Program-made: the position numbers and the translations under genes | DNA from: Thermococcus sp. EP1 | GTDB taxonomy: Archaea; Methanobacteriota_B; Thermococci; Thermococcales; Thermococcaceae | Length of the DNA: 64,000 nt | Direction of reading: 5' to 3' | Assembly (NCBI RefSeq): GCF_001317345.1 | Contig: NZ_JXCG01000001.1 | Location: 62,001-126,000, forward strand | Part shown: piece after piece, positions 59,532-64,000 of the stretch | Layout of the letters: each line of letters opens with the position of its first letter | Position numbering within the stretch: the stretch's first letter is position 1 | The notes under the pieces: model-generated | Told to the model about the DNA's origin: nothing | Seen by the model: the letters and a program-made list of their open reading frames with translations, nothing else | Database searches by the model: none

Positions 59532-61117
59532 ATGAAGATAGTTATTTATGATGGTGCTAATACTATTGGGGGTTCCAAGATCCATGTTGAAGAAGGCGAT
59601 AACGGCCTCTTTCTTGATTTCGGGATGAATTTTGCAAAGTATTCCCTATACTACGAAGAATTCATAAGTGAACGAACTGCAAGAGGAATTTACGACCTCT
59701 GGCATCTCAACCTAATACCAAAACTTAACATTTATCGAAGGGATTTAATTCCCAGAGACCTTATAAATGAAGTTCCCCGATATCCAAAAGTCCCAACCAG
59801 TGCAGTCCTCATAAGCCATGCTCATCTGGATCACGTGGGGAATGTTGCTCTTCTTGACGAGAGCATTCCCATAGTTGGCTCCCCAACAACAATCGCAATT
59901 CTCAAAGCATTAAATGACACTTCCAGTGGAGGCAGTCACTTTGGAATGGAGATTCCCTATTACAAAGTAAAAAAGAACAAGGATTCGGAGGGATATATCC
60001 TCGAAGCAGATAGAAATTCCCATTACCCCTCAAGAAAAGTTATCCTCTCTGAGGATATATCTTCTTTTCATGACTTCCTCTTTTACAGACCCGGGCAAGA
60101 GTCATCCAGAGCCAAGAAAATCATTCCAAATGACGTGAAAACTCTTGATGAGGAAGATTTGGGCTTTGAGATTAAAGCTTTCACTGTGGATCACTCAATT
60201 TATGGTGCCACAGCATACATAATTGAAGGAGACATCAGTTTAGCCTACACTGGTGATTTTAGACTTCACGGAAAAAATGGCAACAAAACAAGGAAATTCA
60301 TCAAGGAGGCAAAAAATGCAAGCGTCTTAATTACTGAAGGAACAAGGGTTGGGAGAGAAGAGCATGAGAACGTTTCCGAGCAAGAAGTTTATAAAAACGC
60401 CCTGAAAATTGTTGAAGAGGCCAAAGGTTTTGTAATAGCAGACTTTTCGGCGAGGAATTTTGAGAGACTTGAAAGCTTTAAAGAAATTGCAGAGAAAACG
60501 GGGAGAGAGTTAATAGTCACAGCGAAAGATGCTTACTTTTTACACGCTCTAATAGTCACAGCGAAAGATGCTTAGAGTTCTTTTTACACGCTCTGAAAAT
60601 GGTTGACGGTGTTGATCGACTTAAAGGCTTGAGGATCTATGGGAACTTCAAAGCCAGTCAGCAAAAATGGGAAGAGCTTGTAGTCTGGAGCAACTATGCC
60701 GAGTATTACGTTTCTCCCTTTGAGATTAGGGAGAATCAAGAAAACTACATCCTCTGCTTCTCGTTCTATGACATGCCCCATCTGCTTGACATAATGCCCG
60801 ATGGCGGGACTTACATCTACTCTTCAAGTGAGGCCTTTGGAGAGGAGCAGGAGTTCAGCTTTTTAAGACTCTGGAACTGGCTGCAATATTTTGGCTTTGA
60901 AGTCCATGGATTCAGAATAGATGGATATGGAAAACCAATCTTTGAGAAAGGTTTGCATGCCTCGGGACATGTTTCAAAAGAAGAATTGAGAAAAGTCATT
61001 GATGATATTGATCCAGATTATATTATTCCAGTCCATACTGAGAATCCAATGTGGTTTAAGAATAAGTGGGATGAAAAGACTGTTGTTTTGAGAAATGGAA
61101 AAAGCTGGGAGGTTTAA
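59532..61117 (+). pseudogene. RNase J-like beta-CASP nuclease gene, disrupted
   Basis: The gene would encode a 513-residue metallo-beta-lactamase/beta-CASP nuclease. The first part (59532-60575, 347 codons) has SHAHLDHVG at 95-103, AYTGDFRLHG and the beta-CASP motif ITEGTRVGREEHENVSEQE; the second part (from about 60595) has ASGHVSKEELRKVIDD and IIPVHTE, motif C. They are separated by an imperfect tandem duplication: TAATAGTCAC... at 60512-60550 is copied at 60551-60594 with an extra GAGTT (60576-60580). Total insertion 44 bases gives a stop at 60573-60575 and a frameshift. Removing it restores one frame of exactly 514 codons. The second part has an ATG at 60599 but no ribosome site. It heads the locus of putative defence genes. 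Confidence 0.85.
60512..60594. repeat. 39/44-base imperfect tandem duplication
   Basis: Unit 1 is 60512-60550 (39 bases) and unit 2 is 60551-60594 (44 bases). They share the first 25 and last 14 bases exactly; unit 2 has GAGTT inserted at 60576-60580. The duplication lies inside the beta-CASP coding frame and ends it early. Confidence 0.92.
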
Positions 61118-61120
61118 AGG

Positions 61121-61555
61121 ATGGGGAAACCTCCAGAACGGGATGTATCTCGGATTATTGAATACATCCGTGATTGTGTAGAACATCCAGAAAACCATCC
61201 AGAGCATTGGGAAGATTGGCTTAGGGCCGGACGAAGAAGGTTTCTCCTTTTGAATATCATCTACTACATCCAGCACGTTCAGGGGAAAGAGGAAGGAGTT
61301 ACCAAAGAAGACCTTGAGAGATTCATGAGAGAGCTATACTATGTTAACAGAGAGATGTTTTCAAACATAATAAAGCCCTGGAAGTCTTTGGATGATACTC
61401 TAAAGGAGCTTTTGGAGCAGAGATTGATTGTTCAGGTTTCAGAAGGAGCGTATCTAGTGAATAAAGAGAGGATACGGGATGAGAAGGATTTGATTTATTG
61501 GGGAGGGATAAAAGGAACATTAGATAAGGTTAGTATGGAAATTTCGAAACTTTAA
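61121..61555 (+). CDS. Unknown 144-residue protein of the defence-like locus
   Basis: The gene starts four bases after the beta-CASP stop, behind GAGGTTTAAAGG. The N-terminal part is histidine- and proline-rich (HPENHPEHWEDWL) and the second half has a winged-helix look (TKEDLERFMREL, LKELLEQRLIVQVSEGAYLV), which could bind nucleic acid. It has one cysteine in RDCVEHPE and no membrane segments. It is between the nuclease pseudogene and the McrC-like gene and probably part of one transcript with the former. I do not recognise a family. Confidence 0.7.
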   Translation: MGKPPERDVSRIIEYIRDCVEHPENHPEHWEDWLRAGRRRFLLLNIIYYIQHVQGKEEGVTKEDLERFMRELYYVNREMFSNIIKPWKSLDDTLKELLEQRLIVQVSEGAYLVNKERIRDEKDLIYWGGIKGTLDKVSMEISKL

Positions 61556-61618
61556 TGTTTTTTAATTTTCCAAAATACTTATTAATTTTAGAACTTAGTA
61601 ACTCTTTGGTGTGGTTTA

Positions 61619-63319
61619 GTGAGTATTATGTGCATTGAGAAGGGGAGTGAAGATGAGAGAAAACTAGACCTTCCCTTCCGAATAGGGAGTATTGGAAGTA
61701 ATTATTGGGCTTTTCTACGGACTAATGAAAATCAAGAACATGAAATAATACTCTTCGAATGGAAGAAGTACGAGATAGAAGCCAGTGAGGCTAAAGTCAC
61801 TATCCCAGACCTAGAAGATATTAAAGAGAGCAAAATTCATGAAAACACTTTTACATTCACGTTCAAAAACTACATTGGAAGGTCAAAGCTCATTATTGAA
61901 GACTCTAATAGAAAGAAACAAGAATTTCCAATTATTGTGCTCTCCGAGAAATTTGGAAAGATCACCATTGAAACCCGGGAAGTTATAGATCTCAAGAAAA
62001 TAACAGACATCAAAGGGAGGAAAGAAGCCATAGGAAAACTAATTGAAAGGTTTAACAAACTAACTCAGAAGCTTACTGACGACATAACAAGAATTTCCTC
62101 TTCACTTAACTTCTCAATAAGATCCCCTACAGCATTTACTGTTTACGAAAGTGATCAACCAATGAACGAGCTTTTCGCTTACCATTACCTCCGCTCAAAT
62201 AAAGAACGCATTATAGAAGCATTTGAGACTGTAATAAGACGAATTAAGAGAAACCTAATTATTAATGAGGAACTACTCGAATTCTATGAAGTAGACGATA
62301 TAAGTCCCGAAACCCTTGTGTCACTCACCCAACATCCCGAATATATTATACCTACTGGAGAAGATATTCCCGTGGCGAAATATTTAGATGGTTATGTTCC
62401 TACCAAAGTTTTTGGCTTTAGAAAGTACGAGAGTTTCGACACTCCCGAAAATCGTTTTGTTAAGCACTTCTTGAAACTCCTTATTGAATGGGCCGAAAAA
62501 GTAATCAATACATTTAAAGGAAAAGTGACTGTTGAACCTATTAGTGAAGTCCTTGGTGAGCTTGAGTTCATAATGAGCGATGGAATATGGGATGAAATCG
62601 GTGAGATGACACTTTTCCCATACACTTCACAGACTCTTCTCAAAGGAGATGGCTATAAGGAGCTTTTGGAACTATATCGCGAATTTACTTCGTACGTGCC
62701 GTTCTTTGATGACCTTCAGAGGGTAATAGACAACAAGGACATTGCTAAGCTCTATGAGTACTGGACCTTCTTTAGGCTCGTGGAGGAGCTTGGGAAAATA
62801 TTCGGTAAAAAAGAACTCAAGATAACTATTGAACCCACAGGAGAACTATTGGAAAAGGAAGGAAAAGTTTATGCCAAGTTCGACAATGGTTGGCGTCTGT
62901 ACTACAACAAAAGGCTCACATTAAGAAAATGGAGCTACTCTGTAACGCTGAGGCCAGATTTCTCACTCTTTAACGATGATCCATCAAAGAAAAGTACAAA
63001 ACTAATCGGAGTTTTTGATGCAAAGTTCAAGCTTGATATTGTAGATACAGAACAAGAGAGAAAAGATTTTGATATTGAGAGTGAAGAAGCAGAAAAAAGC
63101 GAAAACCACACAGCTCGGGCAAAGACGGGGGATATTTACAAAATGCACACCTACAGAGACGCTTTGGGATGCAGGTTTGCAGTGGTAGTTTATCCGGGGG
63201 AAGGGAGTATATTTTTTGATGTGAAGAATGGTAAAATCACAAAGCCTTCATTGGATGAAATATTGATAGGATATGTTGAAGGAGTTGGATATCTGAGTTT
63301 CAAGCCTGAACGAAGGTGA
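61619..63319 (+). CDS. McrC-like DUF2357 / PD-(D/E)XK nuclease
   Basis: A 566-residue protein. The N-terminal and middle regions resemble DUF2357 (AYHYLRSNKERII, GFRKYESFDTPENRFVKHFLKLL, YEYWTFFRLVEEL), and the C-terminal region carries a PD-(D/E)XK nuclease motif: D447 in LRPDFSL and D467-A-K469 in GVFDAKFK, followed by GDIYKMHTYRDAL. This is the build of McrC-type nuclease subunits of type IV, modification-dependent restriction. The start is GTG at 61619 with GTGGTT upstream or ATG at 61628. A TATA-like ACTTATTAA near 61577-61585 suggests its own promoter. The following gene is only six bases away. Confidence 0.83.
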   Translation: MSIMCIEKGSEDERKLDLPFRIGSIGSNYWAFLRTNENQEHEIILFEWKKYEIEASEAKVTIPDLEDIKESKIHENTFTFTFKNYIGRSKLIIEDSNRKKQEFPIIVLSEKFGKITIETREVIDLKKITDIKGRKEAIGKLIERFNKLTQKLTDDITRISSSLNFSIRSPTAFTVYESDQPMNELFAYHYLRSNKERIIEAFETVIRRIKRNLIINEELLEFYEVDDISPETLVSLTQHPEYIIPTGEDIPVAKYLDGYVPTKVFGFRKYESFDTPENRFVKHFLKLLIEWAEKVINTFKGKVTVEPISEVLGELEFIMSDGIWDEIGEMTLFPYTSQTLLKGDGYKELLELYREFTSYVPFFDDLQRVIDNKDIAKLYEYWTFFRLVEELGKIFGKKELKITIEPTGELLEKEGKVYAKFDNGWRLYYNKRLTLRKWSYSVTLRPDFSLFNDDPSKKSTKLIGVFDAKFKLDIVDTEQERKDFDIESEEAEKSENHTARAKTGDIYKMHTYRDALGCRFAVVVYPGEGSIFFDVKNGKITKPSLDEILIGYVEGVGYLSFKPERR

Positions 63320-63325
63320 TGGGTG

Positions 63326-64000
63326 ATGTCTAGGAGGATTGATGAAATATTATCTGTGCTTGAGGAAATTAAGAACATATACTCTCCAGAAAGAGACTTG
63401 AAAGAGATAAGATTAGAAGCTACTAAGAACGTCGCAAGGAGAGAGGGAGTAGAAATAGAAACTGTGGTTGATAAGTATACTAGACAACTTAATTTAGACA
63501 CTTCTGGGTTTGACAAACTATTAACAGAATGGATAGTCAACAATAACCCCATACCTTTAATGCAAAGGTTACTAAAATATGCTGTTGATGAAGAAGATAG
63601 AAAAGGAATTCGTGAATTCTTTGGAAACTCTGAAAAGCAGGTAAAAAGAAGAGATGTAATTGGGATAGTTGCAAATATTGCTTGGGCCCATAATAGATGG
63701 AGAGAGTTTGATGGGCTGGATGATAAGATAAGAGAGAAGTATGGATTTGAGTATGTTAAGCAGACAGGATTTGCTCATGAATGGTGGAATTTCTATGAAG
63801 ACTTTGACTCAGAATACTACTATGGTCATATTGAAAGCAGAGGAAAGCTCAGCAAGTTTAATAGTGGGGGTTTGATCCTTTTTATTTCTCGGAATGTAGA
63901 TGATAACAACTTTTATTTTGTGGGCTTTTATGGAGATGCGGAATACTCAGAAAGTGGTTTTAGAACCGGTAAGACACTTAGAGATCTTCTACCAGGTGAC
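63326..64000 (+). CDS. McrB-like protein, N-terminal part (truncated by window end)
   Basis: The frame is open for 225 codons to the window end. GGTGAT lies five bases before the ATG. Residues 1-110 are helical (SRRIDEILSVLEEIK, RLLKYAVDEEDRKGIREFF). Residues from about 120 look like a PUA/EVE/YTH-type reader domain: FAHEWWNFYEDF, then YYGHIESRGKLSKFNSGGL and ILFISRNVDDNNFYFVGFYGD. Such domains precede the AAA+ GTPase of archaeal McrB proteins and read modified bases. The motor domain would lie outside the window. Position directly after the McrC-like gene supports the name; the order McrC before McrB is reversed from E. coli. Confidence 0.6.
   Translation, partial: MSRRIDEILSVLEEIKNIYSPERDLKEIRLEATKNVARREGVEIETVVDKYTRQLNLDTSGFDKLLTEWIVNNNPIPLMQRLLKYAVDEEDRKGIREFFGNSEKQVKRRDVIGIVANIAWAHNRWREFDGLDDKIREKYGFEYVKQTGFAHEWWNFYEDFDSEYYYGHIESRGKLSKFNSGGLILFISRNVDDNNFYFVGFYGDAEYSESGFRTGKTLRDLLPGD

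Follow-up and report, generated by a model that had tools for sequence, protein, structure and literature searches.

A 44-nt imperfect tandem duplication interrupts an RNase J-like nuclease gene beside McrBC-type genes in Thermococcus sp. EP1

Results

The interrupted gene and its neighbours

The analysed window is a stretch of 64,000 nucleotides from the genome of Thermococcus sp. EP1. At positions 59532-61117 it carries a beta-CASP/RNase J-like gene, which encodes 513 aa when whole. In this genome the gene is interrupted at 60511-60594 by a repeat structure consisting of a 25-nt pair, a 15-nt pair and an additional GAGTT, which together account for a 44-nt insert. The features are as follows:

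59532..60575, + strand: front fragment of the nuclease gene; 339 native codons, 8 foreign residues and TAG; HAHLDH (residues 96-101), H221, D242, D304
60511..60535, + strand: 25-nt repeat TAATAGTCACAGCGAAAGATGCTTA, copy 1; native sequence, common to relatives
60536..60550, + strand: 15-nt repeat CTTTTTACACGCTCT, copy 1
60550..60574, + strand: 25-nt repeat, copy 2; within the 44-nt insert, puts TAG 60573-60575 in frame
60575..60579, + strand: GAGTT filler, part of the second unit; also present at 60507-60511, on the 5' border of 25-nt repeat copy 1
60580..60594, + strand: 15-nt repeat, copy 2, followed by the native rear half
60599..61117, + strand: rear fragment, 172 aa when counted from its first ATG in frame; HASGH (461-465), PVHTE (H487), RMMBL domain
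61121..61555, + strand: 144-aa gene, family not assigned; several relatives likewise have it after the nuclease gene
61619..63319, + strand: DUF2357 and PD-(D/E)XK nuclease, McrC-like, intact
63323..64000, + strand: McrB-like AAA protein of 978 aa, intact, running past the window end; match to the PADLOC candidate PDC-M26A

The front part of the gene matches the profiles PF12706/PF00753 and the rear part matches PF07521. By sequence, its best solved relatives are 2az4 and RNase J. We built an AlphaFold2 model of an intact relative (23 sequences; pLDDT 89, pTM 0.90), and Foldseek with this model returned 2az4 and RNase J structures with E from 1e-22 to 1e-27; the nearest fold, 2az4, is E. faecalis EF2904. 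Residues H96, H98, D100, H101, H221, D242, H461, H465 and H487 are invariant in 23 homologues, and the motifs of both fragments, including D304, are invariant or nearly so. Intact homologues share with the beta-CASP/RNase J family (PF12706 + PF07521; PDB 3bk1, 5ws2) the HxHxDH motif, the H (H221) and the D (D242) of the MBL domain and the C-terminal HxSGH (HASGH) and PxH. The differences from that family are the identity, which is only 15-22%, and scores far under the NCBIfam RNase J cut-offs; the window copy is, besides, broken. For RNase J proper (TIGR00649), the front fragment, scanned alone, scored 48.7 bits against a cut-off of 400. Therefore, we call the protein RNase J-like rather than RNase J proper.

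Structure of the duplication and the reading frame

The 25-nt copies lie 39 nt apart and the 15-nt copies 44 nt apart, both with 100% identity. It turned out that 39 of the 44 inserted nucleotides copy the adjoining 60511-60549. The preliminary description had given the 25-base repeat, both spacings and the extra GAGTT correctly; its 14-base copy is actually 15 nt long. The native order A-B-C-D has become A-B-C-B-g-C-D, where B is 60511-60535, C is the next 14 nt and g is GAGTT, identical to 60507-60511 at the A/B border.

Since 44 is not a multiple of 3, the insert breaks the reading frame. After the native codons the front frame reads LIVTAKDA and ends at the TAG, and the remaining protein lies in the -1 frame, open up to 61117. 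Removing the 44 nt restores a 513-aa frame (514 codons with the stop), as in relatives. A 39-nt deletion between the 25-nt copies would keep GAGTT and the TAG and would leave the allele broken. The earlier frame arithmetic for both deletions is therefore right.

The structure is not a chance occurrence. For CTTTTTACACGCTC with up to 2 mismatches, 0.34 occurrences are expected in the window by chance. A search of 476 kb of the genome (400 kb sampled in stretches, the window and its downstream flank) gave no further direct repeats that are 20 nt or longer and spaced by 10-120. The assembly as a whole contains the inserted junction a single time, and the exact junction was absent from the viral contigs searched. 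Tandem Repeats Finder at score 40 did not list the duplication, probably because of the 5-nt offset.

Comparison with relatives

DNA matches to the gene were found in 27 of 94 genomes of the family, and a protein search showed an uninterrupted full-length frame in at least 19 of the 27. The window's genome has no second copy. The alignment included six homologues, taken from five genomes within the genus. The 44-nt insert is present in the window alone, and none of the six has even a partial repeat at the site; five are full-length (513-515 aa, no stop), and the sixth (G010) begins at a contig edge. Thus, the insert is derived in this lineage. The preliminary description would have been refuted by many relatives with this duplication and functional split proteins; the six aligned homologues do not share the insert, and relatives show no conserved split.

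The two units are identical at all 39 shared positions, which indicates that the insert is young. About 7% of bases differ between the window gene and its nearest full-length relative (G009). For a duplication dating from this split, about 2.7 differences between the units would be expected at the overall rate, and more still at the synonymous rate; the probability of seeing none is about 0.07. Gene conversion could also keep the copies alike. The window branch has 15 synonymous and 10 non-synonymous codon changes, compared with 27:15 and 57:28 for the sister branches, so that no decay or relaxation is visible so far, although these counts are small and have little power. With that reservation, the identical copies and the branch counts fit a recent event, as had been proposed.

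The gene family is patchy and prone to ordinary recurrent loss. One genome (G047) has lost about codons 31-111 from within the gene, and the HxHxDH motif with them, and two others (G007 and G021) retain short relics. At these loci (L104, L105 and L107) the nuclease gene has decayed independently. In Geoglobus UBA235 (L052), a frameshift close to the codon of the break was considered as a second duplication and rejected, because the change lies in an A-run of a MAG. A separate peculiarity was seen between two relatives: G010 (L045, 1-249) and G009 (L023) are identical over codons 252-334 and differ by 6% in the rear half, which may reflect recombination or a chimeric MAG.

Predicted consequence for the nuclease

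The break separates catalytic motifs 2-4, left on the front fragment, from HASGH and H487 on the rear one, which we take to be beta-CASP motifs B and C as known in RNase J. In the AlphaFold2 model it falls after residue 339, inside the beta-CASP helix 331-344. An SD-like GGTG precedes the ATG of the front fragment. No Shine-Dalgarno sequence was found before the ATG of the rear fragment, in contrast to the gene start and the neighbouring genes. Since the helix is broken, the motifs are on separate fragments and the rear ATG has no Shine-Dalgarno sequence, loss of nuclease function is the likely outcome, and neither fragment should be an active nuclease. The earlier claim of an inactivating insertion in a nuclease gene is thus supported.

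Association with McrBC-type genes

Using neighbour clustering, we found a McrC-type gene (DUF2357 or PF10117 cluster) within 7 kb of the nuclease gene in 11 of 27 distinct loci. This adjacency of McrB/McrC-type genes recurs in several genera, and the pairing of the nuclease with a McrC-type gene spans Thermococcaceae to Archaeoglobales. PADLOC gave no match for the nuclease itself. The name "defence nuclease" is thus plausible by association with McrBC-type genes, which supports the defence link suggested earlier.

Across the window (59532-64000) and the loci L094-L106, L026, L029, L052 and L134, RNase J-like beta-CASP genes recurrently adjoin McrB/McrC-type genes. Genes for gamma-glutamylcyclotransferase, ADP-ribosylglycohydrolase, class II glutamine amidotransferase or TPR proteins are frequent further neighbours. 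As in McrBC type IV restriction, including the DUF2357/PDC-M26 type, DUF2357-PDDEXK and McrB-like AAA genes adjoin the nuclease, and elsewhere canonical McrC (PF10117) adjoins its homologues. An RNase J-like partner, in contrast, is no part of the classical McrBC system. In the literature searched we found no description of such a partner and no paper naming both "McrB" and "beta-CASP"; the CoCoNuT paper has an MBL-fold gene only in a single superoperon figure, where it serves to label a domain.

Discussion

Origin of the insert and alternative explanations

The explanation that we favour, with a probability of about 0.8, is that a recent, single, lineage-specific mutation knocked out a dispensable, defence-linked accessory RNase J-like nuclease. 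The insert copies adjoining sequence, relatives do not have it, and the frame is broken, as expected of a knockout by tandem duplication. We infer the slippage route, the lack of activity and the dispensability from these comparisons. During replication or repair, the new strand would slip back and 60511-60535 would be copied a second time. GAGTT would then be gained, most simply from 60507-60511 via a further short template switch, and synthesis would resume at 60536, giving the 44-nt insert, the frameshift and the stop. The match to 60507-60511 is only suggestive of this source: within 86 nt, a chance GAGTT has a probability of 12% and a chance AGAGTT one of 4%. An inverted-repeat source of the filler (CTCTAA / TTAGAG) accounts for GAG of GAGTT only and is a weaker candidate than the direct GAGTT. 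The knockout may have been tolerated because the gene, a partner of McrBC-type loci, is dispensable and has been lost repeatedly.

In Sulfolobus acidocaldarius, tandem duplications belong to the ordinary spontaneous mutations, and large indels (deletions and duplications) make up about 10% of recovered pyrE mutants (PMC7785828; PMC3139894). As in those mutants, a tandem duplication of more than 3 bp inactivates a gene. The difference is that the pyrE genes were reporters, and here the duplication lies in a natural genome, is 44 nt long and imperfect, and has a 5-nt filler; its origin is one that we infer rather than observed.

Among the alternatives, an assembly or sequencing artefact survives best, but we consider it unlikely. 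The living strain would then have an uninterrupted gene. The genome is a draft of 43 contigs, and short-read assembly can mishandle inserts of such size. However, simple expansion of the true sequence would not make the novel junctions GCTC/TAATAG, GCTTA/GAGTT and GAGTT/CTTTTT, short-spaced repeats of 20 nt and above are otherwise absent from the 476 kb of assembly, and the site lies within a 483-kb contig.

The preliminary description called the duplication reversible by design and offered a phase-variable switch as one option, in which the repeat expands and contracts in the population and some cells make the 513-aa nuclease. We find this very improbable. Recombination between the 15-nt copies would indeed return the native frame, and defence genes in general are plausible on/off targets. 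As at contingency loci, a change in repeat number could in principle restore the frame. Yet here there are two imperfect copies in one lineage only, the repeat number does not vary among the six aligned relatives, and the longer, closer 25-nt pair, the predominant route of contraction, would yield a null allele, so that most contractions would be dead ends and the gene would stay off. We saw neither a multi-copy simple repeat nor an inverted repeat accompanied by a recombinase. Before the insertion the site was repeat-free, and re-insertion would need the rare event again. A literature search on reversible duplications and phase variation found no matching archaeal precedent. Reversal via the 15-nt copies is physically possible, and it is incidental to any small tandem duplication. 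Because relatives have no repeat, the 25-nt contraction is null, the native site has no repeat and the family is prone to loss, we favour an ordinary knockout, the other option that had been offered. There is a similarly slight chance of a metastable on/off allele, with -44 cells in the natural population, or of slippage at a T5 run giving a low level of enzyme extended by 15 residues.

Least probable of all is a functional split or recoded gene, whose fragments would assemble or which would yield a full-length protein with about 15 additional residues by -1 frameshifting or transcriptional slippage. In its favour, the motifs survive in both halves, and the rear frame, open from 60482, shares about 94 nt with the front frame; this overlap includes the T5 run (60537-60541), and a -1 frameshift or an extra U in that run could in principle produce such a 15-residue insertion. 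Against it, the break lies within a helix, the rear ATG, unlike neighbouring genes, has no Shine-Dalgarno sequence, relatives show no conserved split, and a strong slippery site was not seen.

Significance and the accessory gene set

Our preferred reading, a spontaneous knockout, gives a clean, relatively datable case in which a natural gene of an archaeon has been inactivated by a small, complex tandem duplication. It also cautions against taking repeat-mediated reversibility for design. Of greater use is a by-product, the recurrent pairing of RNase J-like and McrBC-type genes (in Thermococcaceae, in Archaeoglobales and on one plasmid) as a testable type IV restriction accessory. It is possible that the RNase J-like gene set is an undescribed accessory module of type IV restriction.

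On the Thermococcus barophilus plasmid pTBMP1 (L134, NC_015471.1, 17879-37411), the nuclease (WP_013747435) is intact and annotated "ribonuclease J". Its gene is the first of a series that also comprises genes for class II glutamine amidotransferase, gamma-glutamylcyclotransferase, ADP-ribosylglycohydrolase and DUF2357. Thus, the module can sit on plasmids. In G009 (L023, compared with L045 and L094), the nuclease gene is intact and the 144-aa gene is retained, and the McrC/McrB pair is gone before the same downstream flanking gene, which points to island turnover. In the single-contig genome G006 (L095), each of the ABC-transporter genes that adjoin the nuclease falls into two open frames, of 261+126 and 173+159 aa, compared with 412 and 302 aa in the window.
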